A stretch of DNA of 52,085 nt from a virus: the IMG/VR virus record IMGVR_UViG_3300017788_000035, positions 1 to 52,085 of that record; one strand, 5' to 3'. Numbering within the stretch: position 1 is the first letter of the stretch; every line of letters starts with the position of its first letter. The notes beneath the pieces were generated by a model. It had not been told where the DNA came from. It worked only from the letters and a program-made list of their open reading frames with translations, and made no database searches. The position numbers and the translations under genes were made by a program. This document shows positions 12,227-49,531 of this stretch, one piece after another.

Positions 12227-15200
12227 TGTCACGTATCAAACCCTATAAGTACGTTAATCCAAACATGATTACTGCTATTAAAGCAAGTAATAAAATGGAT
12301 ATGTCTAAGGGTGGGGCAACCATTATTGCCGCAGGCAAAAAAATAACGGGTCCTTCAGATAAAAAGAAGACAACGGGACAGGCCGAGGGATCTGCTGCTG
12401 TATCGATGGGTCGTGCAACCCTCCTAAGTTTTAATAGGATTGGTGGTTCGATAGAATCGCTTGGCCGAGTTCAGGCACAGTTCATTAAAACATTAACTTC
12501 TGAGAAGGCATTCATTACTCAGCAAGCAGAATTTAGAAGAAGACAGCAACAAAGAGCTAGAGATCAAGCAGCAGAAGATTCTCAAGAAAATAATAAGTTA
12601 AAACCAGTTCGTGAACAAACAAAAAAACAAGTTGAGAAAACTAAAGAAAAGGGATTCTTTACTCAACTTATGGAAAAAATCTTTGGACCATTTAAAGGTA
12701 TTGTTGAGTTTGCCTTAAGAGCATTTATAACACAATCGGTTTTAACATGGATAGCAAATCCTAAAAATGGAGAAAAGATCCAGGTATTTATTAATACTTT
12801 AAGTACAGTATTTAAGTTTATATTTAATATTGCATATAAATCAATTGATTTCTTCCTTACAGGAGTATCAAATATTTTTGGTAATGGTGAAGCAAAGGGG
12901 TTTGATAGATTCAAGCAGGTCATGCTTGGACTTGGACAAGTCCTGATTGGAATTGCAGGATTCAAAGCCCTTTCATATCTAAATCCATTCAATCTAGTTA
13001 AAGATTTAGTAAAACTACTGGATTGGTTTAATGTGTTTGGAAACAAACCAACACCTTCTGCCCCACCTGCAGCAACTCCAGGCGGAGCACCAACTCCAGC
13101 TGCTAAACCAAGGGCAGCAGTACAAAAAATTGCATCTGAATATGGTGATGATGCTGCAAAGTATTATGATGATTTAATTTCACGAGGAAAAAATCCAGTA
13201 CAAGCACTTACTGCTGTAAGGAGTAGGTTTAAAAAACTTCCAGTAAAACCAAAGGGTCCTCTTGGTCAATTTGGTGATTTAATGGAGACTTGGAAGAAGA
13301 AAGCGGCAGGTGGACTGGATAACCTGAAGTCTGGTGTCATGAAGGGATGGGAAAATGTTAAGATGCTTGGTGGTAGCATTACCAAAGGTGTAAGAGATAA
13401 ACTGGCATCATCTACTAAGTGGTTTCAAGAGGGTGTCAGTAAAAAATTAACACCAATTGCTAAGTCTGCGTATAATTTACTAGAGAAGAAAGGTATAATT
13501 TCTGCTGCAAAGAAAGCAGGTCAATCTGCTAAAAATGCTATTACAAAAATACCTGGTTATGATAAAGTAATGAAAAAGGTCGCCCAGGAAGGTGGCGAGA
13601 AAATGCTTAGTAAGCTTGGTGGAAAAGCAATTCCAATTATCGGTGGACTAGTAAACCTTTATTTTGCTTATGATAGATTAAAATCTGGTGATAAGTCTGG
13701 TGCTGCCCTTGAAGCATTATCTGCTATTCTAGATCTATCTGGACTATTTGGATTTGTTCCTGGTCCATTTATCTCTTTGGCATTGGATGCATATCTATTT
13801 GGTAGAGACTTTTTCCCTGATGTAGTTAAGAAAGAAAACGAATTTCTTGATAAGATCATTGGTGGAATCATGTCTCCACTCAAGTCTATCCAAGATTCAC
13901 TACCAAAGATTCCTCAACTAGAAACTGGTGGTGTCATTAACAAACCCACTCTTGCCTACTTGGGCGAAAATGGACCAGAAGCAGTTGTTCCTCTTGGCCA
14001 AGGTGGCGGCGGTAATAAAAAAACACAAGCAACACTCATGGCTGCAATGCTGGGATCCTTGGAGGGAATGGGTCCTGGTGCAGATGTTGCCAAACAATTA
14101 TTAGGTGGTGATCTTAATAAGATCAAAGCAGAACTAGGATTGGGCATGGTTGGTGGTGTGGGCAGCGGAGAGTCTATTTCTAAAACGGTTGATAAAGTTG
14201 GTGGAATGGAGGATCCACTATCTCAACAAATTGGTACTAAAGCTCCCTCCTTTAGGAAAACTAATAAACCTGGTAATGCACCAATGACCTTAAGAGGTCA
14301 ATTAGCAAACGTATTAAGCGTATGGGCCTTATTAGCAGATTCAGACCTCAAGAAAGGTATGGGCGGTGGTGAGGGCAAAGCTGGCGGAGGTGACGGCAGC
14401 AGCGGCAGCAGCGGCAGTGGGGGTGATCGCGGCCGCGGTGGTGACACCTCTGGTGGTAATGCAAATATTCAACTTTCAGGCAGTGGATATTTGCCGCTCA
14501 TGATTGAAACTATGAATAAAGGTGGCATTAAAAATCCAAATGAAAGAATCATGTTTATGGCTCAAGTTGGTCATGAATCAGGTGAAGGTAGATACATGGA
14601 AGAAATTGCTTCTGGGGCTGCATATGAAGGTAGGAGCGATTTAGGTAATACTCAACCTGGGGATGGAAAAAGATACAAAGGAAGAGGATATATTCAAATT
14701 ACTGGACGTGCTAATTATAGAACTTATGGTCCTAAAGCAGGTGTTCCTGACGCAGAACAAAATCCAAAGAAACTAGCAGAACCTAAAAATGCAGCAAAAG
14801 TTGCCTTAGCATATTGGTTGGCTAGAGTTAATAGGGGTGCTGCGGCTAAAGGTATGGCAGGTATGAATACTGTGACCAAAAATATTAATGGTGGATTGAA
14901 TGGACTTAAAGATAGAATATCGAAATATAAAAAATATGAAAATATGGATGCTATTAAAAAAATGGCTAAAGGTGGACAATTGTGGAAGAGTCTTCATGGT
15001 ATTGAGTCTAGTCAAACTAAGGCAGATTCGCCACCCAAAAATGCAGCAAAGTCGGCTCCAGATAAAAAACCAGAAAGGTTTGCTTTAGGTGGTAATTATA
15101 AGAACGGCCAACTACCAGCGTCTGCATTAGGATCAATCAGAGGTGGTGGTAAATTGAGAAAGGAAGTTGCGCCACAATTTAATAAGATGTGGGATGATGC

Positions 15201-16101
15201 CAAAGCAGCAGGATTTAATTTAGGATTGACTTCTTCTTATAGATCGTATGAGGATCAAGTGAGAGTATATAATGAATATGGATCACCTAGAGCAGCAAAA
15301 CCAGGATCTTCACCACACTCATGGGGATTAGCAGTTGATTTGAGTTGGCCCAATACGAAAGGATATATGTGGTTAAGAAAAAATTCTAAGAAGTATGGTT
15401 TCAATCAAATACCTGGTTTAGAAACTGACAATCCAGGTGGATTTGAGGCTTGGCACTGGCAAGTTGGTACTGGACGACCATCTGGTGCCAGTGTCACAAA
15501 GGTCGATGGGTCTGCGCCCTCAACTGAATCAGATTCATCATCTAGTGGTGATACTGGAGGAGACAGTACAGGAAGTACTGGATCTGGGGGAGAATCTGAC
15601 GCAAATATTCTTGCGGAAATGGAGAGATCATTTAATGCCCTAAATCAAGGTCTTTATGGTATTGAAGCACCTAAAACAACTCCTGCTCCTGCAGCAGGTG
15701 GAACTGGAACACCAGCAGCAAAACCAGGAGCACCAGCACCAAAACCAGCACCTACTACTAATCCCCCTGGTGCTCTAGCACCAGGTCAAAGACCAGATAA
15801 GGCACTGACTAAAGAACAGTTTGCTATTGCGAAATTAGCAAGGGAGCAAGCAAAAGCTCTTAAACTTTCTGGTATGGATAAAGAGAAGTTTGTTGCACAA
15901 GCAGTGATGAGTGGCGGTACGAATTTATCTCAAGCATCACTTGATAATCAAGTCAGCAACACAGCGGCCTCTGCAGCAGCATCTGCACCAGCAGTAGTTC
16001 CGTTTCCAATAAATAATGGTGGAACAGGTACGACTATCGTCAGCGGTGGTGGAGGACAGGTAATGAGACCTGCTCAACCAATTTCAAATATATTTAAATA
16101 A
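12226..16101 (+). CDS. Giant tail protein with GH19-like lysozyme and M15 peptidase domains
   Basis: A 1291-residue virion protein. The N-terminal 130 residues are charged and helical; hydrophobic helices follow (near 155-175, 190-215 and 490-525). LGENGPEAVVPL near residue 578 is a motif frequent in tape measure proteins. A Gly/Ser linker (about 712-744) leads to a GH19 chitinase-like lysozyme domain (HESGEGRYMEE at about 782, GRGYIQITGRANY), then a VanY/M15 D-Ala-D-Ala peptidase-like domain with SYRSYEDQ, HSWGLAVDL and AWHW (about 955-1080). The tail is Ala/Pro-rich. It probably degrades peptidoglycan during entry; a tape-measure role is an inference. Confidence 0.8.
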   Translation: MSRIKPYKYVNPNMITAIKASNKMDMSKGGATIIAAGKKITGPSDKKKTTGQAEGSAAVSMGRATLLSFNRIGGSIESLGRVQAQFIKTLTSEKAFITQQAEFRRRQQQRARDQAAEDSQENNKLKPVREQTKKQVEKTKEKGFFTQLMEKIFGPFKGIVEFALRAFITQSVLTWIANPKNGEKIQVFINTLSTVFKFIFNIAYKSIDFFLTGVSNIFGNGEAKGFDRFKQVMLGLGQVLIGIAGFKALSYLNPFNLVKDLVKLLDWFNVFGNKPTPSAPPAATPGGAPTPAAKPRAAVQKIASEYGDDAAKYYDDLISRGKNPVQALTAVRSRFKKLPVKPKGPLGQFGDLMETWKKKAAGGLDNLKSGVMKGWENVKMLGGSITKGVRDKLASSTKWFQEGVSKKLTPIAKSAYNLLEKKGIISAAKKAGQSAKNAITKIPGYDKVMKKVAQEGGEKMLSKLGGKAIPIIGGLVNLYFAYDRLKSGDKSGAALEALSAILDLSGLFGFVPGPFISLALDAYLFGRDFFPDVVKKENEFLDKIIGGIMSPLKSIQDSLPKIPQLETGGVINKPTLAYLGENGPEAVVPLGQGGGGNKKTQATLMAAMLGSLEGMGPGADVAKQLLGGDLNKIKAELGLGMVGGVGSGESISKTVDKVGGMEDPLSQQIGTKAPSFRKTNKPGNAPMTLRGQLANVLSVWALLADSDLKKGMGGGEGKAGGGDGSSGSSGSGGDRGRGGDTSGGNANIQLSGSGYLPLMIETMNKGGIKNPNERIMFMAQVGHESGEGRYMEEIASGAAYEGRSDLGNTQPGDGKRYKGRGYIQITGRANYRTYGPKAGVPDAEQNPKKLAEPKNAAKVALAYWLARVNRGAAAKGMAGMNTVTKNINGGLNGLKDRISKYKKYENMDAIKKMAKGGQLWKSLHGIESSQTKADSPPKNAAKSAPDKKPERFALGGNYKNGQLPASALGSIRGGGKLRKEVAPQFNKMWDDAKAAGFNLGLTSSYRSYEDQVRVYNEYGSPRAAKPGSSPHSWGLAVDLSWPNTKGYMWLRKNSKKYGFNQIPGLETDNPGGFEAWHWQVGTGRPSGASVTKVDGSAPSTESDSSSSGDTGGDSTGSTGSGGESDANILAEMERSFNALNQGLYGIEAPKTTPAPAAGGTGTPAAKPGAPAPKPAPTTNPPGALAPGQRPDKALTKEQFAIAKLAREQAKALKLSGMDKEKFVAQAVMSGGTNLSQASLDNQVSNTAASAAASAPAVVPFPINNGGTGTTIVSGGGGQVMRPAQPISNIFK

Positions 16102-25648: not shown

Positions 25649-25669
25649 CATCGTGGCGAGGATATGTTT

Positions 25670-27148
25670 ATGATAAGTTCATTAACTGTATTGGGTGGAG
25701 GAACCAGTGGACTTATTTCTGCATTGATGATTAAAAAATCATGGCCAGAATTAAAGATTACCTTAATTGAATCTTCTACTATTGGAATTATTGGTGTTGG
25801 AGAAGGCAGTACCGAGCATTGGAGTCGTTTTATGGCTCATATTGATCTTGATGTTTCCGACTTAATTCGTGAAGCTGGTGCTACTTATAAAATTGGAATT
25901 AAATTTAATAACTGGCATGGTGACCAAACAAGTTATTGGCATTCATTAGGTGAAGACTATACTAAACGGTGTCCTAATACTGGTTTGTATTATATGTTAA
26001 TGGGAATGATTGGTGATAATAAAAACCAAAATGAAAGTGTTTATAAATTTTCTAGAGATAGTTATCACACTGAACCATTACATTTAAGCACAGCTCAATA
26101 TCATTTTGACACATTTAAGTTAAATACTTTTTTACATAAAAAAGCAAAAGAAAGAGGTATTGAATTTATTGATACTGATATTGTAGATGTTGAATTAGAT
26201 GAACAGGGATATGTATCATCTCTGATTGATAAAAATAATCAACGTTATTCTAGCGATTTTTATATTGATTGCAGTGGATTTAAACGTATTATTGGTACTA
26301 AATTAGGAATCAAATGGATTTCTTGTCAAGAAGAACTTCCAATGAATAGTGCCATGGCATTTCCCACTCCAGGTACTGATGATATTCCTAGTTACACTGA
26401 GGCCACAGCATTAACTTCTGGGTGGATGTGGCGTATACCAACTCAAGAACGATATGGCAATGGGTATGTGTTCTGTGATTCTTTTATTACAGAAGATAAC
26501 GCACAACAAGAGTTGGAAAGTATACATGGTAAAGTAAACATCGGGAGAAGAATTAAATTTACTCCAGGTTATGTGAATAAATCTATGGTTAAAAATTGTG
26601 CTATGATTGGTCTTAGTTCAATATTTGTCGAACCTTTAGAAGCTTCTAGTATTGGTACTACAATTCAACAAATCTTTTTATTGATACCTAATCTATTTCA
26701 TTTTTCTAAAGGAGATAAAAATCGAACTTCCGATATTTACAATCAACACATGGAGGAGATTAATCAAAATGTAATTGATTTTATTCAGTTGCATTATTTT
26801 ACACAACGAAGTGATAGTGAATTTTGGAACTGGTGTAAATCAAATATAGCAATCACTGAATTTAATAGAGACACGCTAGAGTATTTTAAGACAAATTGGC
26901 CAAACCATTTACATTTTCCTAATCAATTGGCACTTTTTTCTGCTGTTAACTGGATTCAAGTTATGTGGGGATTGAGATTATTTGATTCTTCTGCAATTAA
27001 GTCTAAAATTCCATCATCATTAAGACCGTTGATAGATTCTCAAGAAAAAGAGATTGAGAAATGGGTATCTTCCGTTCAAACATTTTCACATAGAGAATCA
27101 ATAGAGATTCTTAAAACACGTTACCCACAGATTTCCTATGCACTTTAA
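25670..27148 (+). CDS. Flavin-dependent halogenase-like protein 1 (tryptophan halogenase family)
   Basis: A 492-residue FAD protein of the tryptophan halogenase family. It has GGGTSG (9-14), GVGEG (42-46), ATYKIGIKF with the catalytic lysine K74, GWMWRIP (W252-P257, the WxWxIP signature) and VEPLEASS (321-327). The glutamate equivalent of PrnA E346 (E324) is kept, but the following S-T-G, which binds halide in PrnA, is A-S-S. The enzyme needs reduced flavin and would halogenate an unknown substrate. ATG 25670 fits GAGG at 25658-25661 better than ATG 25664. It is flanked by tRNA-Leu and tRNA-Thr. Confidence 0.88.
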   Translation: MISSLTVLGGGTSGLISALMIKKSWPELKITLIESSTIGIIGVGEGSTEHWSRFMAHIDLDVSDLIREAGATYKIGIKFNNWHGDQTSYWHSLGEDYTKRCPNTGLYYMLMGMIGDNKNQNESVYKFSRDSYHTEPLHLSTAQYHFDTFKLNTFLHKKAKERGIEFIDTDIVDVELDEQGYVSSLIDKNNQRYSSDFYIDCSGFKRIIGTKLGIKWISCQEELPMNSAMAFPTPGTDDIPSYTEATALTSGWMWRIPTQERYGNGYVFCDSFITEDNAQQELESIHGKVNIGRRIKFTPGYVNKSMVKNCAMIGLSSIFVEPLEASSIGTTIQQIFLLIPNLFHFSKGDKNRTSDIYNQHMEEINQNVIDFIQLHYFTQRSDSEFWNWCKSNIAITEFNRDTLEYFKTNWPNHLHFPNQLALFSAVNWIQVMWGLRLFDSSAIKSKIPSSLRPLIDSQEKEIEKWVSSVQTFSHRESIEILKTRYPQISYAL

Positions 27149-37285: not shown

Positions 37286-38086
37286 ATGAGTACTTTAAAA
37301 GTTGCTGCTATTCGAGATCTGTCAAGCACGGGTGGTTTTACTCTTGCGTCTGGTGCTGTTACGGCCAACGGTACTTTAACAGTTCAAAACATTGTTATTA
37401 ATGGTACGGTTTCAGGAAACAGCAAAAATTATATACCATCTCAATCTGGTCACTCAGGAAAAATTTTGTTCAGTGATGGAACTACTGCCTTCTGGGGCAC
37501 AGCACCATCTGCAGAGAATATTTTCAGTATGCAGGTATTTACTAGTTCTGGTACATGGAATAGACCTACTGGTGTAAAATTTATTAAGGTTCAACTTGTT
37601 GGTGGAGGTGGTGGAGGTTCAGGTCACGGAGAATCTGGCGGAGCTGGAGGTTATTCTGAAAGAGTCATTGATGTTCAAGCAACAGCATCAGTTTCTGTTA
37701 CCATTGCTGGAGAAGTAAACGGAACATTTTATTCTGGACCTGGTGATAATAATGGTGGATCATCATTTGGTAGTTTTCTTTCTGCTTCTGGTGGATTTGG
37801 TGCTAACAGAAATAATCAACACTCTGGTGGATTAGGAGGAGTTGGATCTGGCGGTAACCTAAACATATATGGCGGTGGTGGACAATCACATCACAATTAT
37901 TCATCTGTGGGTGGAACTTCTTTCTTTGGCGGTGCTGTTGCTGCTGGTCACCCTCAAGGCGGAAATTTCTCTCATAACCACCAAAGTCACTCTGCCCCTG
38001 GATCTGGCGGATCTGGAGGATATTTTCATAACCATAGAGGGTCTAATGGCCGCCCTGGTATGTGTGTAATAACCCACTTTAAATAA
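37286..38086 (+). CDS. Glycine/histidine-rich tail fibre, copy 1
   Basis: A 266-residue fibre. The N-terminal 90 residues are shaft-like (MSTLKVAAIRDLSSTGGF). A beta domain starts with MQVFTSSGTWNRPTGVKFIKVQLVG, then a Gly-rich region, and finally a tip with several His-x-His motifs: FSHNHQSHS and YFHNHRGSNGRPGM. In T4 gp37 tips, HxH motifs hold a row of iron ions. It is a close paralogue of the next gene, and the two are separated by 5 nt. Likely receptor binding. Confidence 0.76.
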   Translation: MSTLKVAAIRDLSSTGGFTLASGAVTANGTLTVQNIVINGTVSGNSKNYIPSQSGHSGKILFSDGTTAFWGTAPSAENIFSMQVFTSSGTWNRPTGVKFIKVQLVGGGGGGSGHGESGGAGGYSERVIDVQATASVSVTIAGEVNGTFYSGPGDNNGGSSFGSFLSASGGFGANRNNQHSGGLGGVGSGGNLNIYGGGGQSHHNYSSVGGTSFFGGAVAAGHPQGGNFSHNHQSHSAPGSGGSGGYFHNHRGSNGRPGMCVITHFK

Positions 38087-38091
38087 AAATC

Positions 38092-38898
38092 ATGAGTACA
38101 TTAAGAGTAACAAATATCAGAGATCGCTCTGGAACATCAGGATTCACTTTAAATGGTGGTAATCTCACTACTGTAGGACGACTAATTTTAAATAATATAG
38201 TTGCTAATGGTACTATCACTGGAAGTACTCCGTCTTTCTTACCAAATCAAACTGGTCAAAATGGAAGAGTATTATCTACCAATGGATCAACCCCCTTCTG
38301 GCAAACAATTAATACTGCTGGTAATATTACTAGTATGCAGGTATTTACCAGTGGTGGTACATGGAATAGACCTACTGGTGTAAGATTTGTTCATGTTCAA
38401 GTTATTGGCGGCGGCGGAGGTGGATCGGGTCATGGTGAAAGTGGTGGATGTGGAGGTTATTCTGAAAGAGTCATTGATGTTCAAGCAACAGCATCTGTAT
38501 CAGTAACAGTTTCTGGTGAAGTAAACGGAACATTTTATGCTGGTGGCGGAGAAAATGGTGGATCTTCTTCATTCGGTAGTTTTCTTTCTGCTTCTGGTGG
38601 ATTTGGTGCTAATAGGAATAATCAACACTCTGGTGGCTTGGGCGGCAACGGATCTGGTGGTAACCTAAACATATTTGGCGGTGGTGGTGAATCTCACCAC
38701 TCTCGTGGAGGTAGTGCTACCACTAGTGGAGGTTTCTTTGGCGGTGGAGTTGCAGGAGGATGGCCTCAAGGTGGGAACTTTAGTCATAACCACCAAAGTC
38801 ACTCTCCCCCAGGATCTGGTGGAGCGGGAGCACACTATCATAACCATAGAGGGTCTAATGGCCGTCCAGGGATGGTAGTAGTAACTCATTACTTATAA
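38092..38898 (+). CDS. Glycine/histidine-rich tail fibre, copy 2
   Basis: A 268-residue paralogue of the previous fibre. GTWNRPTGV, GGGGGGSGHGESGG, GGYSERVIDVQATASVSVT and FSHNHQSHS are shared nearly word for word, while the first 90 residues and several loops differ. The tip reads AHYHNHRGSNGRPGM, again with HxH. A tandem duplication is the simplest origin; divergence is greater in the N-terminal part than in the distal domain. Its stop codon overlaps the late promoter of the next gene. Confidence 0.76.
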   Translation: MSTLRVTNIRDRSGTSGFTLNGGNLTTVGRLILNNIVANGTITGSTPSFLPNQTGQNGRVLSTNGSTPFWQTINTAGNITSMQVFTSGGTWNRPTGVRFVHVQVIGGGGGGSGHGESGGCGGYSERVIDVQATASVSVTVSGEVNGTFYAGGGENGGSSSFGSFLSASGGFGANRNNQHSGGLGGNGSGGNLNIFGGGGESHHSRGGSATTSGGFFGGGVAGGWPQGGNFSHNHQSHSPPGSGGAGAHYHNHRGSNGRPGMVVVTHYL

Positions 38899-38925: not shown

Positions 38926-39417
38926 ATGAAAAAAGCTTTAATGTCAATTCAAGGTTATGTTCACCAGATTGTAGAACCTGGGGAAGACTATGAAATTTAT
39001 TGTGGACCTGATGCCACTATTGCCTGGGTAGATGCTCCTGATGATATTACTCTTGATTGGACTTTAGAATACTCACCCAAGGCAAAGAAAATGGTGTGGG
39101 TAAAGAGAGATCGCGTTCACCAAGATCCTGTAATCGCAAGAAAAGTTGCTTATGGGGAGGTTGGTGAACAATTAGATATGATGTATAAAGATATGCTCGA
39201 TGGTGGAACTAGATGGAAAGATCATGTCGCTGCAGTAAAAAGAGATCTCCCAAAACCAGAACCAAATCCAACGGATACAATGACATTAGAGGAACTTCTA
39301 ATCTACTCTGAAACTGCAGAACCATCAAAAGATCAACAATGTGGTATCTCTACTGCAGATAATCCTTGTTGGGTTAGATATCCAGGATGGGCTGGTTACC
39401 AAGAACCTACTGTCTAA
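38926..39417 (+). CDS. Hypothetical protein at end of fibre block
   Basis: A 163-residue protein MKKALMSIQGYVHQIVEPGEDYEIYCGPDATIAWVDAP. The first half is beta-rich with several Trp; the middle has helical charged segments; the C-terminus STADNPCWVRYPGWAGYQEPTV is Trp/Pro-rich. Position and late promoter suggest a virion or fibre-assembly role. It shows weak resemblance in its terminal NPCWV motif to DDPWWV in the protein at 36739. Function unknown. Confidence 0.7.
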   Translation: MKKALMSIQGYVHQIVEPGEDYEIYCGPDATIAWVDAPDDITLDWTLEYSPKAKKMVWVKRDRVHQDPVIARKVAYGEVGEQLDMMYKDMLDGGTRWKDHVAAVKRDLPKPEPNPTDTMTLEELLIYSETAEPSKDQQCGISTADNPCWVRYPGWAGYQEPTV

Positions 39418-39429
39418 TGACAAAATTTA

Positions 39430-39438
39430 TGCTATAAT
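39430..39438 (+). promoter_or_regulatory. Extended -10 promoter for halogenase/oxygenase cluster
   Basis: TGC followed by a perfect TATAAT (39433-39438). No good -35 is found at 16-18 bp. The start is predicted near 39445, 29 nt before ATG 39474. No ATAAATA late box is seen here, so this cluster may be expressed earlier than the fibre genes. Confidence 0.6.
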
Positions 39439-39473: not shown

Positions 39474-41078
39474 ATGAGTAAAATTGAGAGTGTTATAATT
39501 ATTGGAGGTGGATCATCTGGATGGATGACAGCGGCCGCCCTAAGTAAATTGTGTCCGCATCTAGAAGTTGGTCTAATTGAGTCCAGAAACGTAAAATCTA
39601 TTGGTGTAGGAGAATCTACTCTCGGTCACATCAATAGATTCTTGCGTTTGCTTGATTTGAAAGATGAAGACTGGATGCCAGCATGTAACGCAACATACAA
39701 AAATTCCATTCGTTTTACTAATTTTAGAGAAAACGATGGAACTCACTTTGAGTATCCATTTGGTGCCAGCTGGGACTTTACCGATAAACCTCTTGGACTA
39801 GATACTTGGTCTGCACTTAAATTAATTGATCCAGATACTTACACTCCAGATACTTTTGCGGAATTTTATAATAGTAATGCATTTTTAGCAAAATATAATC
39901 GTCAGACTAGAAATGAGGAAGGCATTCTTCGAAATTATGATTTTAGTAATGATACTGCTTATCACTTAGATGCAGAACTATTTGGACAATATTTAAAAGA
40001 TAAAATTGCAATTCCAAATGGTGTCAAATATTATCAGGGAGATATTACTGGTTTTAAACATGTCTCTGGAAATGATTTGACTGTAGAGTATCTCCTCATG
40101 GATAAAGTTAATTTTGTGCAAGCCGATCTTTATATTGATTGTACAGGATTTAGATCTTTACTCCTAGGAGAATATATGGGAGTAGAGTTTTTATCATTTG
40201 AAAAAAAATTAGCTAATAATCGTGCTTTAGCATGTAGAATTCCTTATGTTGATCGTGAAAATGAAATGCGTAATGTCACTGATTGTCATGCATTGAAAAA
40301 TGGATGGGTTTGGAATATTCCTCTCTGGAATAGAATTGGTACTGGATATGTTTACTCCTCTAGATTTACTACAGCGGAAGAAGCAACCCAAGAATTTAGA
40401 GAGCATCTATCTAAAACAGACTCTAAGAGAGCAGAAGAAGCAGAAATAAAGTCAATTAATATAGCCCATGGAAAACGAAGATTATCTTGGGTTCGAAACG
40501 TTTGTGGTATTGGATTATCTTATGGATTTGTAGAACCATTGGAATCTACTGGCCTCTTGACAACTCATGAGAATATCATTAAACTAGTAGAAGTTCTCAA
40601 CCGTAGAAGTGGTTATGTGTCTAGATCTGAAATCGATGGATATAATTTTGCTGTAGATTATGAAGTACAAAGTTTTGTTGATTTTGTTTCTATGCATTAT
40701 GCATTTTCAATGAGAGAGGACACACCATATTGGCGTTGGGCTACTCAAATTAATGAATATAATCCTATCATGATGAGTGAGTTTACCAATAAAAACCATT
40801 CATATCAAACGTTTTTGTCAACAATGACTTCCAATAATAGTTGGTCACCAACTTCTAATGGAATAAATTACATCGCGGCAGGATTGGGATTATCCTCCAT
40901 TTCTACTTTAGAATTGCTAAGAGAAAAAGTATCAGACCAAGAAGCACTCATGGATTGTAATCGTAAATATAAACAATATAGAGACTATGTTGTTGAACAC
41001 GTCAAATCTTTGCCAACACATTATGAATTTTTACGTGACAATATTTATGGGGGTGTAGATGAATATCTTCAAAAATAA
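39474..41078 (+). CDS. Flavin-dependent halogenase 2 (VirX1-like tryptophan halogenase family)
   Basis: A 534-residue FAD-dependent halogenase. GGGSSG lies at 11-16, GVGES at 44-48, catalytic lysine K76 in NATYKNSIRF, the WxWxIP signature at W278-P283 (GWVWNIP), and EPLESTG at 354-360 with the intact glutamate, Ser, Thr and Gly of the PrnA active site. The cyanophage Syn10 halogenase VirX1 belongs to this group. All key residues are present, so an active enzyme is plausible; substrate and flavin reductase are unknown. It opens the oxygenase cluster and overlaps the next gene by 20 nt. Confidence 0.92.
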   Translation: MSKIESVIIIGGGSSGWMTAAALSKLCPHLEVGLIESRNVKSIGVGESTLGHINRFLRLLDLKDEDWMPACNATYKNSIRFTNFRENDGTHFEYPFGASWDFTDKPLGLDTWSALKLIDPDTYTPDTFAEFYNSNAFLAKYNRQTRNEEGILRNYDFSNDTAYHLDAELFGQYLKDKIAIPNGVKYYQGDITGFKHVSGNDLTVEYLLMDKVNFVQADLYIDCTGFRSLLLGEYMGVEFLSFEKKLANNRALACRIPYVDRENEMRNVTDCHALKNGWVWNIPLWNRIGTGYVYSSRFTTAEEATQEFREHLSKTDSKRAEEAEIKSINIAHGKRRLSWVRNVCGIGLSYGFVEPLESTGLLTTHENIIKLVEVLNRRSGYVSRSEIDGYNFAVDYEVQSFVDFVSMHYAFSMREDTPYWRWATQINEYNPIMMSEFTNKNHSYQTFLSTMTSNNSWSPTSNGINYIAAGLGLSSISTLELLREKVSDQEALMDCNRKYKQYRDYVVEHVKSLPTHYEFLRDNIYGGVDEYLQK

Positions 41079-41835
41079 AAGCTGGGTACGATTTTACTCA
41101 TTAGAACCTGCAGTAGCAGATTTATATCCAATTATTACAGCACATTCTCTTAAACGCAAGTGGCAAGATAAAAAAGTATCAAAGTGTCCACTTTCTGGAT
41201 TGATGTCTTCTGCAAATTGTCCAGGTATTACTAACATTGCTCATGCAGGTTATATTTTACCTGCACCAGCCGATTTTGTAATCACGACAAATGGTGAGGG
41301 CATTACATTTAGTTGGGAAGTTCCATATATGTTTGATTTTTGTGGATCTAAATCTTACATTGACAAGCATGATGCAAAGCAAACATATCCATTATTAGAT
41401 AATCCTGATACGACATTACATGAAATTGTTAAGGTAGAAACTCCATGGAGATTTAAAGCATCTGATGATATAGTTTTACTTCAAATGCCAGTTGCATATA
41501 ATAATGAAAAAAGATTTACTCCAGCAACAGGAATACTTGACCCTAAATATGGACATGTGTTAAATGTTCAATTATTCTGGCATGTTTTAGAGGGAGAAAC
41601 TTTTATTAAAGCTGGAACACCATTGGCACAATATGTTCCTATGAATCGTAAATATCTAAACCTTAATAATTTTGAGACTATTATTGATGGCGCGGGGGAG
41701 GTTGAAATTGAACTAGAAAAAGCATTTCAATATGCCAATAAGTGCAATACACTTAGATATGACACTGTACAATCACGAATAAATAGAGTGACTGAGATTT
41801 TTAAACGTTATCGTAAAAAAGGAGTTAGACTATGA
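41059..41835 (+). CDS. DUF6065-like protein
   Basis: A 258-residue protein. The order RFYSLEPAV, KRKW, CPLSGLMSSAN, AGYILPAPADFVI, FSWE, then HEIVKVETPWRFKASDDIVLLQMPV, TGILDP and AGTPLAQYVPMNRK matches the DUF6065 plan, a predicted beta-sandwich of unknown function. No HxD...H iron triad is evident, unlike the genes that follow. It overlaps the halogenase and the next gene, so it is translated with both. A helper or substrate-binding role for the tailoring cluster is an inference. Confidence 0.7.
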   Translation: MNIFKNKSWVRFYSLEPAVADLYPIITAHSLKRKWQDKKVSKCPLSGLMSSANCPGITNIAHAGYILPAPADFVITTNGEGITFSWEVPYMFDFCGSKSYIDKHDAKQTYPLLDNPDTTLHEIVKVETPWRFKASDDIVLLQMPVAYNNEKRFTPATGILDPKYGHVLNVQLFWHVLEGETFIKAGTPLAQYVPMNRKYLNLNNFETIIDGAGEVEIELEKAFQYANKCNTLRYDTVQSRINRVTEIFKRYRKKGVRL

Positions 41836-42050
41836 CTATTGATGAATTGATTGATAATTTCAGAGGGCAGCAACAGATAGCCCAAGAAGAAAAGGATAGA
41901 TTAGAAGAAGAATTTAGTAATACTAAATTAAATCCCTATGGTATTACTACAATTGACTTCAGTAAGCGTCAAGAGCAAATGGATTTACTCTTAAAACTTC
42001 AAGGTGCAATAGAAGGATTGGAGTTAGCAAAGGTTGAGTGTGATCTTTGA
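41832..42050 (+). CDS. Short coiled-coil protein
   Basis: A 72-residue protein MTIDELIDNFRGQQQIAQEEKDRLEEEF with heptad-like spacing in both halves, interrupted by NPYGITTIDF. It resembles a small helical hairpin. Its start and stop are each in 4-nt overlaps with genes of the tailoring cluster, which implies strict co-translation. The function is unknown; scaffolding of neighbouring enzymes is only a guess. Confidence 0.72.
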   Translation: MTIDELIDNFRGQQQIAQEEKDRLEEEFSNTKLNPYGITTIDFSKRQEQMDLLLKLQGAIEGLELAKVECDL

Positions 42051-42652
42051 CTAATATTATTTCGTTATGGACTCCATATATTTGGAAGTTTGAATATCAA
42101 TTTGATACTGAACTAATGGATTTAGCATTAGAACAAGTATCAAATCATTGGTCAGTGAGTCCTGAATCTAGTATGGTTGAAACAGGAGATTCATATTCAA
42201 CTGTTAGAGTTGGTGTGCATGATTGGAATCAACAACCACATTGTCTACCACAACTTGAATTTTATAATGCTTGGTTAGAACCAATCATTAATAAAATATG
42301 GTCTGAATGTAATTTTTTGCAGATGAAAAGTGAGGTTAGTAAATCTTGGTTTAATGTGCATCGCAAAACAGGTCAAACAATAGAACATCTACATACTGGA
42401 ACAGATTTAATTGTATCGGCCTATGTTCGTTGTGAAAAAGATTCTGGTAATATAGAATTTAGAGATCCGCTAGAGTACCAAAAAGTTAATTCAGTATGGT
42501 ATCGAGAAGAATCTTTATGGCAGGAAGTAAAAGTTAAAACCAATGATGTTCTTATTTTTCCTGGATGGATATATCACCGTACACAACCAAATTTGACTAA
42601 TACACAAAGAGTTGTAATGACATATAATATCGATGGAAATCCCACTCTTTAA
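42047..42652 (+). CDS. Putative 2OG-Fe(II) oxygenase 1 (TIGR02466-like), TTG start
   Basis: A 201-residue double-stranded beta-helix protein. WFNVHRKTGQTIEHLHTGTDLIVSAYV (H114/H116), VLIFPGWIYHRTQPN (H177) and QRVVMTYNI (R188) are laid out like TIGR02466 oxygenases, in which H...H plus an Arg bind iron and 2-oxoglutarate. The start is TTG at 42047 in an overlap with the previous stop; no ATG is near. It is the first of nine consecutive genes of this fold. Substrate unknown. Confidence 0.75.
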   Translation: MTNIISLWTPYIWKFEYQFDTELMDLALEQVSNHWSVSPESSMVETGDSYSTVRVGVHDWNQQPHCLPQLEFYNAWLEPIINKIWSECNFLQMKSEVSKSWFNVHRKTGQTIEHLHTGTDLIVSAYVRCEKDSGNIEFRDPLEYQKVNSVWYREESLWQEVKVKTNDVLIFPGWIYHRTQPNLTNTQRVVMTYNIDGNPTL

Positions 42653-43427
42653 TCGTTGCTATCCAGACAGAAATACCTTCAATGATGTCATCAGGATTAA
42701 GAATCCGCATGATTGGTCTGGAGAGCATGTTAAGGTTGATAATGCAATTGAATATTGGATTATGGATAATCCATTTTACGATAATGGATTTGAGTTATAT
42801 CGTCAGTTAGTATCTAAGTTTCCCATTGTAATAGATACGAACGATGAGGGATCTACAGATCCTAATCCATTTGCTACGATACATCTTCCACAGTGGTGTA
42901 GTGATAGTATATGGACGTTGTTCGAACAATATTTTGAGAAATATTTACCTCACTATATGAATATGAATTATTCAGAGTGGGGTAATTTATATTTTCCAGA
43001 TGAATATAAACCCTATGATTATTATAGATTACCTCATTGTGATGGGCCAAATGGTTTAGTTTCTAATTTATGGTTTACAGATCATCCGATAGAACAGTCT
43101 GGTACAATTTTATATAAGTATCATGGTAAGATCATAAAAGGACCAGATAATAAGTTATACTATGATTATCAGTCAGATAAAAGTCACAAGTTGTTTGAAG
43201 AGGCCAAAGAATTATATCTATCTAATAAACGATTAGACCGTACTACTCCTCTCACCATTGATGAAGAAATATATTGGGGATTTGAGAGAGTAGCAATTCT
43301 TCCATGTAAGTATGCTACAATGACAATCTATCCAACATCTGTATCTCATACACCTTTCATCACTACACAATGTGGGTTTAGGTGGTCTCACGCATATTCT
43401 ATTAATTATACTCCTCTTTTAGCATGA
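42633..43427 (+). CDS. Putative 2OG-Fe(II) oxygenase 2 (DUF6445-like)
   Basis: A 264-residue protein with an HxD...H...R set: LPHCDGPNG (H135, D137), SVSHTPF (H239) and GFRWSHAYSINY (R250). The strand order around these motifs suits the double-stranded beta-helix fold, and the long insert between residues 165 and 215 is unusual. It shares a plan with cyanophage DUF6445 proteins. The 20-nt overlap with the previous gene and 4-nt overlap with the next indicate coupled translation. Substrate unknown. Confidence 0.65.
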   Translation: MEIPLFNRCYPDRNTFNDVIRIKNPHDWSGEHVKVDNAIEYWIMDNPFYDNGFELYRQLVSKFPIVIDTNDEGSTDPNPFATIHLPQWCSDSIWTLFEQYFEKYLPHYMNMNYSEWGNLYFPDEYKPYDYYRLPHCDGPNGLVSNLWFTDHPIEQSGTILYKYHGKIIKGPDNKLYYDYQSDKSHKLFEEAKELYLSNKRLDRTTPLTIDEEIYWGFERVAILPCKYATMTIYPTSVSHTPFITTQCGFRWSHAYSINYTPLLA

Positions 43428-43960
43428 ATGATTACAAATTATATCAGATAGAAGGACTTGATCAAGATGAATTGATTTGGCATATCAAAATGTCAAGAGA
43501 CAAATTTAATCACATTTATCGTGGTATACTGGAACATGACACAAGTTTTTATTATCTCTATAATTTTTTTACTATAGCGGCATGTAATCATCATATATAC
43601 AAATTGTATAATGAGATGGTGAAATGCATGAGAGATTATAATTCGGATGCATCTTGGTTTCAATGTTGGATGAATATTCATCATCAGGATGAAGTATTGA
43701 AATCACATTCACATGGGTATCCTATACACGGATACTTTTCTCTTACTAATCATAATACATCAACAATATTCACAGATGGCCATGATGGTAATGAAATATA
43801 TCGTATAGATAATAAGCCCATGCAAATTTATATTGGTCCTGGTTATAGACATCATCATGTAGTTGTAAATGAACCGTATGATGATGAACGTATTACTTTA
43901 GGATTCGATATACAACTAGAAGATGCTATTGTTGAAAACTTTAGTTTTATACCCATATGA
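43424..43960 (+). CDS. Putative 2OG-Fe(II)-fold oxygenase 3
   Basis: A 178-residue protein. Candidate metal ligands are H95/H97 (KSHSHGYPIHGYFSL), a histidine trio at 143-145 (YRHHHVVVN) and R156 (DERITLGFDI). The aromatic, strand-rich C-terminal half is compatible with a cupin/double-stranded beta-helix. The first HxH motif lacks the acidic residue of classical HxD enzymes, as in TIGR02466 members. It overlaps both neighbours by 4 nt. The function can only be inferred from fold and context. Confidence 0.62.
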   Translation: MNDYKLYQIEGLDQDELIWHIKMSRDKFNHIYRGILEHDTSFYYLYNFFTIAACNHHIYKLYNEMVKCMRDYNSDASWFQCWMNIHHQDEVLKSHSHGYPIHGYFSLTNHNTSTIFTDGHDGNEIYRIDNKPMQIYIGPGYRHHHVVVNEPYDDERITLGFDIQLEDAIVENFSFIPI

Positions 43961-44544
43961 ACTTAGATTATTATTTTCCAACACCAATATGGTGGGAGGA
44001 TACCAACATTGATGTTAAACCAATAGAGGAATGGTGTTACTCCTTACGAGATCAAGATTCAACAGGTAGAAATCTGAGTAATCGTGGTGGATGGCAATCA
44101 CAAGAAATATCCCTTAATAAGGAAATACCAGAATTAGTTTCATTCATCATGAAACAGGCTGGTCGAACACTTGATGATTATGGATATGAACCAACAAGAA
44201 CTAAAATCTTTTTTGGGAATAGTTGGGTAAATATTAACAAGGGTAAAGACACCAATCAAATTCATTTACATCATGGTTCTTTCCTATCAGGAGTGTTTTA
44301 TGTCAAAACTACCCCCCAGAGTGGTAAAATATTTTTCTATAGGAATTTTGATCAAAATTACATTACTACTAGTTTTGCTAAAATTAAAGATTATACATCT
44401 ATAAGTAGTGGCACTGTTTGGTATCCACCTAAGGATGGAAGGTTAATTCTATTTCCTGCTAATCTTCTTCATGCTGTCGATGAAAGTACGGATGAAGAGG
44501 ATAGAATTTCGATTGCATTCAATATAGGTATTCAATATGAATAA
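43957..44544 (+). CDS. Putative 2OG-Fe(II) oxygenase 4 (TIGR02466 family)
   Basis: A 195-residue protein with clear family motifs: FGNSWVNINKGKDTNQIHLHHGSFLSGVFYV (H103/H105), GRLILFPANLLHAVDEST (H172) and DRISIAFNI (R183). TIGR02466 members are predicted 2-oxoglutarate/iron dioxygenases common in cyanophages. Residues 1-15 (MNLDYYFPTPIWWED) are the usual start. It is more canonical than the similar gene at 42047, and the two are probably distant paralogues. Substrate unknown. Confidence 0.85.
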   Translation: MNLDYYFPTPIWWEDTNIDVKPIEEWCYSLRDQDSTGRNLSNRGGWQSQEISLNKEIPELVSFIMKQAGRTLDDYGYEPTRTKIFFGNSWVNINKGKDTNQIHLHHGSFLSGVFYVKTTPQSGKIFFYRNFDQNYITTSFAKIKDYTSISSGTVWYPPKDGRLILFPANLLHAVDESTDEEDRISIAFNIGIQYE

Positions 44545-45247
44545 TATTATTTCACGTTTGTGTAATGAATCTAATTTTTTATATCAAGATCGTGCCTATT
44601 TTTTTCCTAAATTGATACCTAATCCTGAGGAGTACTTATCATGGAAAGATGTAGAATATTGTGTTAACAATCCTGCGTTCTATGAATTTGAAGTAATTGA
44701 CCACAATAATAACAAAATTCTTATTGACCGCTATATTAGGGCTTGGATACAAGAAAAGAAAGTACAAGATCATTGTCAGTTGGTAAACCAAATTAATCAT
44801 GGACATACTGTGATTATTATGAATTACGGTTTTCATAGCAGGAAAACTCAAGATCTGTTATTAGATTTAGAAAGATATTTTGATGTAGATGCTGCTATTC
44901 ATGTATACGGTGGATTGACAGGATCCAAATCTTTTAATATACATGATGATTACCCATGTAATTTTATTATTCAAACTCAGGGTACAACTGATTGGAAAAT
45001 TTACAAAAACAGAATATCACAACTACATAAAACAGGTCACGACTCATACAAGATTAGAGATGAACTATTGGAAGTTGATCTAGAGGTTACACTAACTCCT
45101 GGTGATTGTCTCTATATTCCATCTAGAGCATATCACTGTGCATTTCCAAAAGAAAAACGTTTGTCTATGAGTATACCTTGTTGGCCAAGATTACCTGGGT
45201 CGAATCAAACATCAAATCGAAATTTTTATAAATTGAATTATGAATGA
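44537..45247 (+). CDS. JmjC/cupin_4-type oxygenase (ribosomal oxygenase-like) 5
   Basis: A 236-residue protein of the cupin_4/JmjC type. FNIHDDYPCNFIIQTQGTTDWKIYKNR holds the HxD pair (H136, D138) followed by the typical G-x-x-x-W-x-I/V strand; LTPGDCLYIPSRAYHCAFP contains the second His (H200). HVYGGLTGSKSF before the motif matches YcfD/NO66/MINA proteins, which hydroxylate Arg or His in ribosomal proteins. A host ribosomal or a phage protein could be the substrate. It overlaps both flanking genes by 8 nt. Confidence 0.83.
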   Translation: MNNIISRLCNESNFLYQDRAYFFPKLIPNPEEYLSWKDVEYCVNNPAFYEFEVIDHNNNKILIDRYIRAWIQEKKVQDHCQLVNQINHGHTVIIMNYGFHSRKTQDLLLDLERYFDVDAAIHVYGGLTGSKSFNIHDDYPCNFIIQTQGTTDWKIYKNRISQLHKTGHDSYKIRDELLEVDLEVTLTPGDCLYIPSRAYHCAFPKEKRLSMSIPCWPRLPGSNQTSNRNFYKLNYE

Positions 45248-45806
45248 CATACTAGAAGTTAAGGAACTCATCACTAAGTCTAGACAAAAACATCTGTTAA
45301 ATGTGCTCACTGATATGAGTTTTAGTTGGCACTATTTGGAAGATGCCACATTTGAAAAAACTATTGAAAACAAGAAAACTGTACCATCTTTCTGTCATTT
45401 ACTATACAATAATGGCGAGAAAGGACATCATTTTGATACATTCTATCCTGTGTTATTAGATTTCTTAGAACACGAAGATCTTAAACTGGATAGGTTATTA
45501 AGAATGAGACTAGGATTTCTTCTTAACACAACTTATTCTATGCCTCATTTACCATATTCATACAATAATCCACATATTGATTTTGAACAACCACATATGG
45601 TAGGATTGTATTATTTAAATGAAACTGATGGCGACACTGTTGTATTTAATGAAACGGAAGAATCCGAGGAATATCATGTAAAGGCCAGAATAAAACCAGA
45701 ACCTGGTAAATTTGCTGCTTTCGATGGTAAGTACTATCATGCTAGTACTTGTCCTAAAATGTTTACTACTCGATTTGCAATAACATTTAATTTTACTGTA
45801 AAATGA
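45240..45806 (+). CDS. Putative 2OG-Fe(II) oxygenase 6
   Basis: A 188-residue P4H-like protein with an intact triad: NPHIDF (H112, D114), KYYHAST (H167) and TTRFAITFNF (R178). Between them lie VGLYYLNETDGDTVVFNE and the turn KPEPGKFAAFDGK, as in prolyl hydroxylase-type enzymes. It is a paralogue of the gene at 46411, sharing LDRLLRMRL/FNRLERMRF and the DGDTV motif. All residues needed for catalysis are present. Substrate unknown. Confidence 0.85.
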   Translation: MNDILEVKELITKSRQKHLLNVLTDMSFSWHYLEDATFEKTIENKKTVPSFCHLLYNNGEKGHHFDTFYPVLLDFLEHEDLKLDRLLRMRLGFLLNTTYSMPHLPYSYNNPHIDFEQPHMVGLYYLNETDGDTVVFNETEESEEYHVKARIKPEPGKFAAFDGKYYHASTCPKMFTTRFAITFNFTVK

Positions 45807-46414
45807 ACACACCAATCATAACAATTGATAATTTTTTTGAAACCCCATCTTTAGTAAGAGAATTTGCTTTAAGGCAAGAGTATTTCAAGGGTGATAGAGG
45901 AAATTGGCCTGGAGTTAGAACAGCATTTCTCGATACTATCAATAAAGAGTTTTTCCATATATTTGCATCTAAACTAATACAATATATTCCAGGTAAACAT
46001 TCTTTTACAAACTTGGAATCTACCTTTCAACTGATAGATGAATCATATGGATCTGGTTGGGTTCACGATGATGACGATAAATTTAATGTTGCTGGTATGG
46101 TGTATTTGAATCCTGGCCCTGTCAGACAGGGATGTGGTACGACTTTTTATGATTATAGATTAGATGTGAATGGTGAAGATTATTCAAAGATGTTTCAAGA
46201 AGAAGTGAATAGTGATGATATTGAAGGGAGACAAAAGTATCAAAAATATAGAGAAGAACATAGAGGAAAGTGGACTCCAAATGTTGTAGTTGAGAATCGG
46301 TATAATAGATGTAATATATTTAATTCTAAATTATGGCACAGTGCAGATAATTTCTTTGGTACAGATGCTGATACAACTAGATTAACACTTGTATTTTTTG
46401 GACACGCAATATGA
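45803..46414 (+). CDS. Putative 2OG-Fe(II) oxygenase 7 (DUF6445 family)
   Basis: A 203-residue protein. The run GWVHDDDDKFNVAGMVYLNPGP (H88, D90), SKLWHSADNFFG (H179) and TTRLTLVFFG (R193) follow the DUF6445 plan, a double-stranded beta-helix family of cyanophages. A charged insert (KMFQEEVNSDDIEGRQKYQKYREEHRGK) separates the two halves. 4-nt overlaps on both sides join it to neighbours. Substrate unknown. Confidence 0.75.
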   Translation: MNTPIITIDNFFETPSLVREFALRQEYFKGDRGNWPGVRTAFLDTINKEFFHIFASKLIQYIPGKHSFTNLESTFQLIDESYGSGWVHDDDDKFNVAGMVYLNPGPVRQGCGTTFYDYRLDVNGEDYSKMFQEEVNSDDIEGRQKYQKYREEHRGKWTPNVVVENRYNRCNIFNSKLWHSADNFFGTDADTTRLTLVFFGHAI

Positions 46415-46992
46415 TTGAAGTATTTGATGATGTTATATCAAAAGATTATCAGAAGTATATCTTGAATCTGGTAAATGAGCAGGACTTTCCTCTTTACTTT
46501 AGACCAAATATAGTGACACATAATTATTCAGATGTAGTAGCAAATATACATGGATTTACTCATCAATTATTCGAGAACAATAAATCTACATCAACATATT
46601 TCAATACAATATATCCAATGGTGCTAGGTATAACTGAGAAGACAAGAGTCAAATTCAATAGATTGGAGAGAATGAGATTTAATTTTGTTCTTGGTAATCC
46701 TGATTCCAAATTAGATTATCACATGCCACATGTAGATAACTACACATCTCATTTAGTGGCCATATATTATGTGAATGATTGTGATGGTGATACAGTTATA
46801 TTTGATCAATTCTTAGATGAGCAAACTAATGAAAGAGATGATCAGATATTAAAGATGAACAATTGGACAGTAAAGAAAAGAGTATCTCCAAAGATGGGAC
46901 GATTACTGGTATTTGATGGTAGACAATATCACACGAGTTCATATACAAAAACCCAACCATATAGATGTGTTATTAACATGAACTTATCATGA
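46411..46992 (+). CDS. Putative 2OG-Fe(II) oxygenase 8
   Basis: A 193-residue P4H-like protein: HMPHVDNYTSHLVAIYYV (H107, D109), GRQYHTSS (H174) and PYRCVINMNL (R185), with CDGDTVIFDQ and KMGRLLVFDG between. It is the paralogue of the gene at 45240, so the cluster grew partly by local duplication with the DUF6445 gene between the copies. Catalytic residues are intact. Substrate unknown. Confidence 0.85.
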   Translation: MIEVFDDVISKDYQKYILNLVNEQDFPLYFRPNIVTHNYSDVVANIHGFTHQLFENNKSTSTYFNTIYPMVLGITEKTRVKFNRLERMRFNFVLGNPDSKLDYHMPHVDNYTSHLVAIYYVNDCDGDTVIFDQFLDEQTNERDDQILKMNNWTVKKRVSPKMGRLLVFDGRQYHTSSYTKTQPYRCVINMNLS

Positions 46993-47516
46993 TTCATACT
47001 TTACAACATGCTATTTCTGAAGAAATGTGTGACTATATTGCTATCAATATGGAAATGCTTAGAGTGGCCCTGGGAAATCCTCCTGATCCAACAATTAAGA
47101 ATAGTTTTGGATACTATGCACCAATTTTTCTTGAGAGTTTTTTATTGTACGTACAACCAATTGTAGAGAAAGAGATCAATAAGACTCTGTATCCTACCTA
47201 TTCATATGGTCGCATATATGGCCGAGATAGTGTTCTAAAACGTCATATAGACCGTCCTGCAGGTGAATATGGAGTCACATGTTGTATTGAGAAGCAAACA
47301 GATTGGCCCATCTATTTTGAAATTGATGGCGAGGTACAATCTGTAGAATTAGAAGTGGGTGATATTTGTATCTACAAGGGGATTGAGTATCCACACTGGA
47401 GAGATCCATGTCCAGCAGATCGCCATATACAAGTATTTCTGATGTATGTTGATGCCAATGGTGAGTATTCGTCATGGAAATATGACAGAAGACATTATTT
47501 GTGTGGAGAAACTTGA
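46989..47516 (+). CDS. Putative 2OG-Fe(II) oxygenase 9
   Basis: A 175-residue oxygenase with LKRHIDRPAGEYGVTCCI (H86, D88), EYPHWRDPCP (H136) and DRHIQVFLMYV (R145). The motif order matches a cyanophage group in which HxD is followed by E-Y-x-V/x and PHWR. It is the last gene of the contiguous cluster; a new sigma-70 promoter overlaps its stop. The start is in an ATGA overlap with the previous gene. Substrate unknown. Confidence 0.83.
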   Translation: MIHTLQHAISEEMCDYIAINMEMLRVALGNPPDPTIKNSFGYYAPIFLESFLLYVQPIVEKEINKTLYPTYSYGRIYGRDSVLKRHIDRPAGEYGVTCCIEKQTDWPIYFEIDGEVQSVELEVGDICIYKGIEYPHWRDPCPADRHIQVFLMYVDANGEYSSWKYDRRHYLCGET

Positions 47517-48771: not shown

Positions 48772-48968
48772 TGGCATTAGTACAACAAGTAACAGATTCA
48801 TTAGATGAAGCAACATCGGCACTACGAAATGCATTAGCATTTGCAGCTCGTCAAGAGCGACCAGTGGTTTGTAATACAATTTCAGACATTCTGTGTCGTA
48901 TTGAGCAACTCAAGTCTTTTGACGGACTAATGGATAAACTTGACAAGATGAATCTTACACAAGAATGA
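48771..48968 (+). CDS. Small helical hypothetical protein
   Basis: A 65-residue protein MALVQQVTDSLDEATSALRNALAFAARQ with strongly helical, Ala- and Leu-rich sequence and two cysteines (VCNTISDILCRIEQL). It is coupled to the flanking genes by overlaps. It could be a small dimeric helix bundle. Function unknown. Confidence 0.72.
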   Translation: MALVQQVTDSLDEATSALRNALAFAARQERPVVCNTISDILCRIEQLKSFDGLMDKLDKMNLTQE

Positions 48969-49531
48969 CATTTCATCAATTAAGAAACCCAAAATCAACT
49001 GTATATAATGAATTAAAACAATTTATTTTATCTGCAGATTTTCCTTGGTATTGGAATCCAAAAGCAACACCTGAAGATGTTGATACTGGTCAATATCAAG
49101 ATGTTCCTTTCTATAGTCATGTTTTATTGGCAAGACCTAGATGGAAAAGTATGTCCGATAGATGTTATCCAATGCAGCAATCTGTTCTGTTAGATAACTT
49201 CTGGCCTTTGTTAGATGAAATTATTGCATTCAATCCCAGAATGAATATCAATTCATTTATGCGAATCAATGCTAATTGTGTCATGCCACAATCTGATCCG
49301 AGAGTTACTATCCCACATCATGATCATCAATTTGAACATCACAATTTAATTGTGTATTTCAATGGGTGTGAGGATGGTGGAGAAACTATTCTCTTTGATT
49401 CTAGTGAGCAACTAGAGACAGCAGAGAGATATTATCCAAAGGAAGATGATATTGTAACTTTTACAGGATTGCATTGCATGAATCCTCCTAAAAAAGATAG
49501 ACGTGTTATTCTTGTAGCAACTTACATATGA
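48965..49531 (+). CDS. Putative 2OG-Fe(II) oxygenase 10, outside the main cluster
   Basis: A 188-residue P4H-type protein with TIPHHDHQFEHHNLIVYFNG (H118, D120), FTGLHCMNPPKKD (H170) and DRRVILVATY (R180), with EDGGETILFD between. The DGGET motif is typical of prolyl hydroxylase-like enzymes. It lies 1.4 kb downstream of the main oxygenase cluster, among small early genes, so it may be regulated differently. Substrate unknown. Confidence 0.83.
   Translation: MTFHQLRNPKSTVYNELKQFILSADFPWYWNPKATPEDVDTGQYQDVPFYSHVLLARPRWKSMSDRCYPMQQSVLLDNFWPLLDEIIAFNPRMNINSFMRINANCVMPQSDPRVTIPHHDHQFEHHNLIVYFNGCEDGGETILFDSSEQLETAERYYPKEDDIVTFTGLHCMNPPKKDRRVILVATYI

Follow-up and report, generated by a model that had tools for sequence, protein, structure and literature searches.

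In many viruses of cyanobacteria, the genes of a glycine-rich (Gly-rich) host-recognition fibre form one unit with those of halogenases (one or two) and oxygenases (at most about twelve), a linkage which suggests chemical modification of the fibre tips by enzymes of the virus itself. The window analyzed here is the whole 52-kb stretch (52,085 nt) of the IMG/VR record IMGVR_UViG_3300017788_000035, a fragment of a T4-like cyanophage. Its block at 39474-47516 contains twelve open reading frames (ORFs) in a single direction. The first encodes a flavin-dependent halogenase of the VirX1 type, the second a protein with a dUTPase fold, the third a protein of 72 aa, and the remaining nine, in a row, proteins of the 2-oxoglutarate (2OG)-Fe(II)/double-stranded beta-helix type. 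A previous reading of the same sequence (the original prediction) had described this block as a candidate tailoring operon of overlapping genes, and neighbors indeed overlap by 4, 8 or 20 nt. It had overlooked both the extension of the unit into the upstream fibre genes and another halogenase of the window (25664-27148). The block is in fact the rear half of a larger unit composed of Gly-rich fibres (37286-38898), a fibre-accessory protein (38926-39417), the halogenase(s), and the oxygenases. We consider it probable that the block forms the enzymatic half of a mobile cassette for the fibre tip, and that its enzymes tailor the fibre-tip complex (the tip, the tail of the accessory protein, or both) before assembly.

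The unit is not limited to the window. In tblastn searches against 50,697 phage records, the accessory protein was found in 20 records, which are exactly those with the fibre subtype (12 from one search, 8 from another), and all of them carry the halogenase. The nine examined isolates whose halogenase belongs to a cassette share the same gene order, with two or three Gly-rich fibre genes, the small accessory gene, the halogenase, and several oxygenase genes, at two genome addresses: one, in Syn9-like phages, is on the helicase side, and the other, in Sf-FP1 and S-RIM44, precedes the neck gene gp13. Since some of the anchors came from cassette phages, the following fractions describe the family and not all cyanophages: in IMG/VR, the halogenase lies within 3.5 kb of 118 from 127 distinct fibre-anchored loci, the nine halogenase-less loci all coming from deliberate searches with cassette-less S-RIM2-type phages, and of the 50 distinct fibre-anchored loci that extend far enough downstream, 47 contain 4-12 genes of oxygenase families in the next 13 kb. 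The halogenase-oxygenase loci span several genera and both addresses, and this neighborhood survey supports the tailoring operon of the original prediction, the linkage between the two enzyme types being non-random. The number and order of the oxygenases vary by lineage, while the order fibre-accessory-halogenase is nearly always kept. The window's order (Gly-rich fibres, accessory gene, halogenase(s), phrog_7084 gene, small gene, nine oxygenase genes) is shared by Syn9 (gp41-gp54), Syn10 (CPUG_00132-00119) and S-CREM1 (ORFs 69-80); unlike the window block, Syn9 and Syn10 have two tandem halogenases.

Isolates of S-RIM44 differ in the presence of the unit. NC_047734 has the whole unit, fibres included, whereas KX349295, which has ~95% nucleotide identity to it in the flanks, is devoid of the fibre subtype, the halogenases, the dUTPase-fold gene, and the oxygenases, all together. 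This whole-unit presence/absence argues against the independent gain of single metabolic genes. However, it could also result from the swapping of fibre regions as large recombination blocks, in which the enzymes ride along as passengers and act on something else, for example ribosomal proteins or glycans of the host surface; co-inheritance would then reflect block recombination. The S-RIM44 swap does span the fibre region as a block, the GC content of the window block (0.33) is below that of its flanks (0.39 and 0.385), and JmjC_2 (PF08007), the family of one of the nine oxygenases, includes ribosomal oxygenases. On the other hand, passengers would not explain why the fibre subtype is absent from records without the halogenase, nor the association between the halogenase and the tail described below, and we regard this explanation as improbable.

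The fibre half of the unit starts with two copies of a Gly-rich fibre protein, here named F, both on the plus strand as is the accessory gene. The first copy (37286-38086) encodes 266 aa and is 70% identical to the second (38092-38898; 268 aa), which matches PF21722 (Gly_rich_2) and phrog_863 (tail) and is the candidate fibre tip and candidate substrate. Candidate residues of F are E116, Y149, N174, H179 and H202, with a conservation of 94-100% across a reduced set of 125 cassette-linked sequences and mostly other residues in nine cassette-less ones, which marks a subtype and is no proof of modification. The accessory protein (gp40-like; 163 aa) is composed of a domain of ~110 aa and a C-terminal tail (39262-39414) that ends in NPCWVRYPGWAGYQEPTV, with phrog_1787 covering residues 1-111 only. 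In close relatives, a variable linker is followed by the terminus PAWxRYPGWxGY, with W149, R151 and W155 invariant. The ~110-residue domain is also found directly behind a Gly-rich/tail fibre gene in S-RIM2, S-RIM12, S-B64 and S-RIM4, where the protein stops at 112-117 residues and no cassette follows.

The tail is associated with the halogenase. A tail Trp is present in 131 from 132 distinct accessory proteins with a halogenase downstream versus 2 from 18 without, one of these two (locus L068) having a halogenase just upstream. Counting by 50%-identity clusters, the Trp is found in 11 of 13 with the cassette versus 2 of 13 without (Fisher p=0.0012), in a comparison set that is small and related, with clusters not fully independent and with tail length as a confounder, since a longer tail is by itself more likely to include a Trp. 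Of the two cassette clusters counted as Trp-less, one (L243) owes this to a parsing error, its Trp being in fact present. Of the two S-RIM44 isolates, only the one with the cassette has the tail. The few examples compared by eye gave no clear relation between the number of tail Trp and the number of halogenases.

A domain followed by a Trp tail beside a halogenase recalls the bromination by SrpI, a peptidyl Trp brominase that is leader-guided to a C-terminal Trp (PMC10858898). The accessory protein could then be the precursor of a ribosomally synthesized and post-translationally modified peptide (RiPP), with the domain as leader and the Trp tail as core, which would be halogenated, hydroxylated, and released as a bioactive peptide. 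The variable linker before a conserved terminal motif would suit a precursor. However, neither protease, YcaO/Lan enzyme, nor transporter was recognized among the block genes in library searches, and the same domain occurs behind fibre genes with no tail or enzymes, so this seems to us very unlikely. SrpI and MibH, both flavin-dependent, halogenate Trp in peptides of ribosomal origin, as in the role proposed here, but they sit in bacterial RiPP clusters with thiazoline/lanthipeptide cores, with no phage fibre and no oxygenase battery.

The halogenase of the block (39474-41078, plus strand) matches PF04820 (E=2e-99), and its best PDB match is VirX1 (6QGM; E=3.8e-211), aligned over residues 1-528, the full length. 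The motifs GxGxxG (GGGSSG at 11) and WxWxIP (WVWNIP at 278) and the catalytic Lys76 and Glu357 are present, the latter two being invariant. As originally proposed, the product is thus predicted to be a complete VirX1-type flavin-dependent halogenase. VirX1 comes from the cyanophage Syn10 and is its closest solved relative; the window protein has 57.5-68% identity to the halogenases of Syn9, Syn10 and S-CREM1.

VirX1 iodinates diverse small molecules in vitro and has a large, accessible active site (PMC8407142), and its natural substrate is not named in the accessible literature. The activity on small molecules favors a role in auxiliary metabolism: the halogenase would yield a small molecule, such as halotryptophan, and the oxygenases would reprogram host metabolism, 2OG levels or DNA repair. 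Such roles were put forward for S-CREM1, where ten 2OG oxygenases and a halogenase were counted and discussed as metabolic genes (PMC9964418), for cyanophage 2OG genes in nitrogen signalling by Sullivan et al. (PMC3037559), and for S-SZBM1 (PMC9146016). The literature found, as far as its text is accessible, treats the cassette enzymes as separate metabolic genes, and no description of the fibre link was found there. A metabolic role leaves unexplained the co-inheritance with one fibre subtype, the joint presence/absence in S-RIM44, and the cassette-specific tail; host-metabolism roles are less supported than fibre-tip tailoring, and we judge them unlikely. The component families are known and the block itself is already in published genomes; the fibre linkage and the tail association are undescribed as far as we searched.

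The nine genes at 42047-47516, all on the plus strand and numbered here from 1 to 9, are predicted 2OG-Fe(II) oxygenases with the double-stranded beta-helix fold, as the original prediction had it. Four are supported by Pfam/NCBIfam profiles: oxygenases 1 (42047-42652) and 4 (43957-44544), both above the cut-off of 2OG-FeII_Oxy_5 (PF13759), oxygenase 5 (44537-45247; JmjC_2, the cupin_4/JmjC assignment previously given) and oxygenase 7 (45803-46414; DUF6445, PF20043). No significant Pfam match was obtained for oxygenases 2 (42633-43427; phrog_1644 group), 3 (43424-43960; phrog_2696), 6 (45240-45806; phrog_274, P4H-like, after prolyl 4-hydroxylases) and 9 (46989-47516; phrog_2954), and the matches of oxygenase 8 (46411-46992; phrog_274) to PF13640 and PF13759 are weak and below cut-off. 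These are counted as fold members because of profile-profile links, which join oxygenases 2 and 7 (93%), 7 and 6 (96%), 6 and 8 (100%), and 3 and 4 (97%), and because of the AlphaFold2 (AF2) model of oxygenase 9 (pLDDT 96.6), whose best Foldseek matches in the PDB are prolyl hydroxylases (P. putida P4H and PHD2). The fold is therefore modeled for oxygenase 9 and assigned to the other eight by Pfam/NCBIfam or profile links; PDB profile searches with oxygenases 2 and 9 gave no meaningful sequence match.

Some subgroup assignments of the original prediction need adjustment. TIGR02466, proposed for oxygenases 1 and 4, is above cut-off in the latter only and sub-threshold in the former. DUF6445, proposed for 2 and 7, stands for oxygenase 7, while oxygenase 2 is a distant relative. 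The P4H-like label, given originally to 6 and 8, is kept for oxygenase 6, which shares phrog_274 with oxygenase 8. The metal-ligand sets, also claimed before, are conserved in all nine families, with members taken from IMG/VR. HxD..H is found in oxygenases 2 (H135xD137, H239, R250), 5 (H136xD138, H200, R208), 8 (H107xD109, H174, R185) and 9, the distal Arg of the last being less clear than in the other families, and HxH..H in 1 (HxH..H..R), 3 (H95xH97, H144, R156) and 4. In the families of oxygenases 6 and 7, the HxD is kept in about 80-90% of the members (68-69 from 76 for oxygenase 7). The PHROGs labels of phrog_274 ("DNA endonuclease V"), phrog_1644 ("minor coat protein") and phrog_2954 ("ferrochelatase") look wrong, and such doubtful labels were copied into the RefSeq records of Syn9 and others. 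A further phrog_274 oxygenase is found outside the operon, at 48965-49531.

The substrates considered originally were the fibre, a ribosomal protein or a small molecule; it is the fibre complex that the comparisons between phages favor, and we infer it to be the target. In Pam3, the glycine-rich fibre tip gp24 is engaged by the chaperone gp25, encoded by a small gene directly after it (PMC9608196). The accessory protein would similarly engage the nascent fibre tip during infection, and the halogenase and the oxygenases would act on the tip-accessory complex inside the cell. Aromatic residues would be the target of the halogenase, either the conserved tail Trp, Tyr of the tip, or both, and the oxygenases would hydroxylate tip side chains; the Trp tail itself may be halogenated or may only recruit the enzymes. 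A precedent for halogenation of a C-terminal Trp under the guidance of a leader is SrpI (PMC10858898), and the large, accessible active site of VirX1 (PMC8407142) also speaks for this reading. The modified tip would then be mounted on the virion, with an altered adhesin chemistry that may affect adsorption. More tentatively, and with less confidence than in the tailoring itself, the cassette may be a dedicated modification line, with a Trp-tailed fibre chaperone (its tail being halogenated or recruiting) and up to a dozen oxygenases writing a swappable chemical pattern on the adhesin, which would also be the natural role of VirX1. Viral enzymes modifying the virus's own surface proteins have precedents in the collagen hydroxylases of giant viruses and in phage virion glycosylation, and to our knowledge those systems have no halogenase and no multi-oxygenase cassette. 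No modifying enzymes are described for Pam3 gp24/gp25 or S16 gp38, and none of these proteins matches F or the accessory protein of the window in sequence.

Besides the block recombination and the limits of the Trp comparison mentioned above, several points weigh against fibre-tip tailoring. No modified residue has been observed so far. The halogenase is not beside the fibre-accessory pair in S-B64, nor in the distant group of Syn1, S-PM2, S-MbCM6 and P-SSM2, and in Sf-CH11 the halogenase and oxygenases sit between fibre-region genes with no accessory gene. The accessory protein has no Pfam family in 23 members, no PDB match, and no recognizable sequence homology to Tfa families or Pam3 gp25; for F, the PDB profile search gave no sequence match beside the Gly_rich_2 match in Pfam. 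Sequence comparison thus gives no support to their identities as a chaperone and an adhesin (gp38), and we infer the Tfa-type chaperone and the gp38-type adhesin from position and composition. In S-SZBM1, virion mass spectrometry detected the neighboring fibre-region proteins 51-54 but not the fibre tips, the accessory protein or the enzymes (PMC9146016). The missing tip peptides may reflect a low copy number, poor digestion, or a modification that the spectral search did not cover, and the lack of detected cassette enzymes in virions fits enzymes acting inside the cell. We found nothing useful in the literature on Syn9 expression timing or on hydroxylated phage fibres. The tailoring of fibre tips by this cassette is directly testable by mass spectrometry of a few proteins from the cultured phages Syn9, Syn10 and S-CREM1. 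It would bring the substrate question of VirX1, the first characterized viral halogenase, and the cyanophage 2OG oxygenases together in one fibre module and, if true, phage enzymes would chemically edit virion adhesins, a layer of host recognition invisible in the genome sequence alone.

Between the halogenase and the oxygenases, the gene at 41059-41835 (plus strand; phrog_7084) had been taken for a DUF6065-like protein, which was rejected since PF19541 gave no match at E<=10. Its AF2 model (pLDDT 80) has dUTPases as best Foldseek matches (E 7e-5; TM by target 0.71), and we predict a dUTPase-type fold. No Pfam match was found for phrog_7084 family members, and the PDB profile search with the window protein gave no meaningful sequence match. 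Cellular homologues were restricted to two real matches and a spurious one. The first is on a 188-kb contig of a Nonlabens xiamenensis assembly (L277, NZ_RMVE01000006.1); this contig, which includes the cassette, has the look of a P-TIM40-like cyanophage and is probably a contamination. The second is on a short contig from a Prochlorococcus single cell, where the gene order is the same. The following small conserved gene (41832-42050, plus strand; 72 aa) has orthologues in Syn10 and S-CREM1. Upstream of the block, the extended -10 promoter-like motif TGCTATAAT exists at 39430-39438 (plus strand), as read in the original prediction, which made it the single promoter of the block; however, the motif was not seen in the relatives compared, and promoter-like sites in this region occur at chance level only in a promoter scan.

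The second flavin-dependent halogenase of the window, flanked by the baseplate hub gene on one side and the fibre genes on the other, is nearer to bacterial-type enzymes than to VirX1 and keeps GxGxxG, WxWxIP and TYK. Behind many of the IMG/VR cassettes, one or two extra halogenase genes lie on the opposite strand (L025, L026, L029-L031, L034, L036, L037 and others), and a variant cassette has three or four tandem halogenases, with an oxygenase between the accessory gene and the halogenases (L091, L097, L126, L130, L132, L147, L148). In Sf-CH11 (L013), the genes before gp13 are a fibre-region gene, two oxygenases, the halogenase, two oxygenase-family genes, and a LamG protein, with no Gly-rich fibre. 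Elsewhere in the window, a VanY D-alanyl-D-alanine carboxypeptidase domain was recognized in a 1291-aa protein (12226-16101), which also has a weak chitinase-like match.

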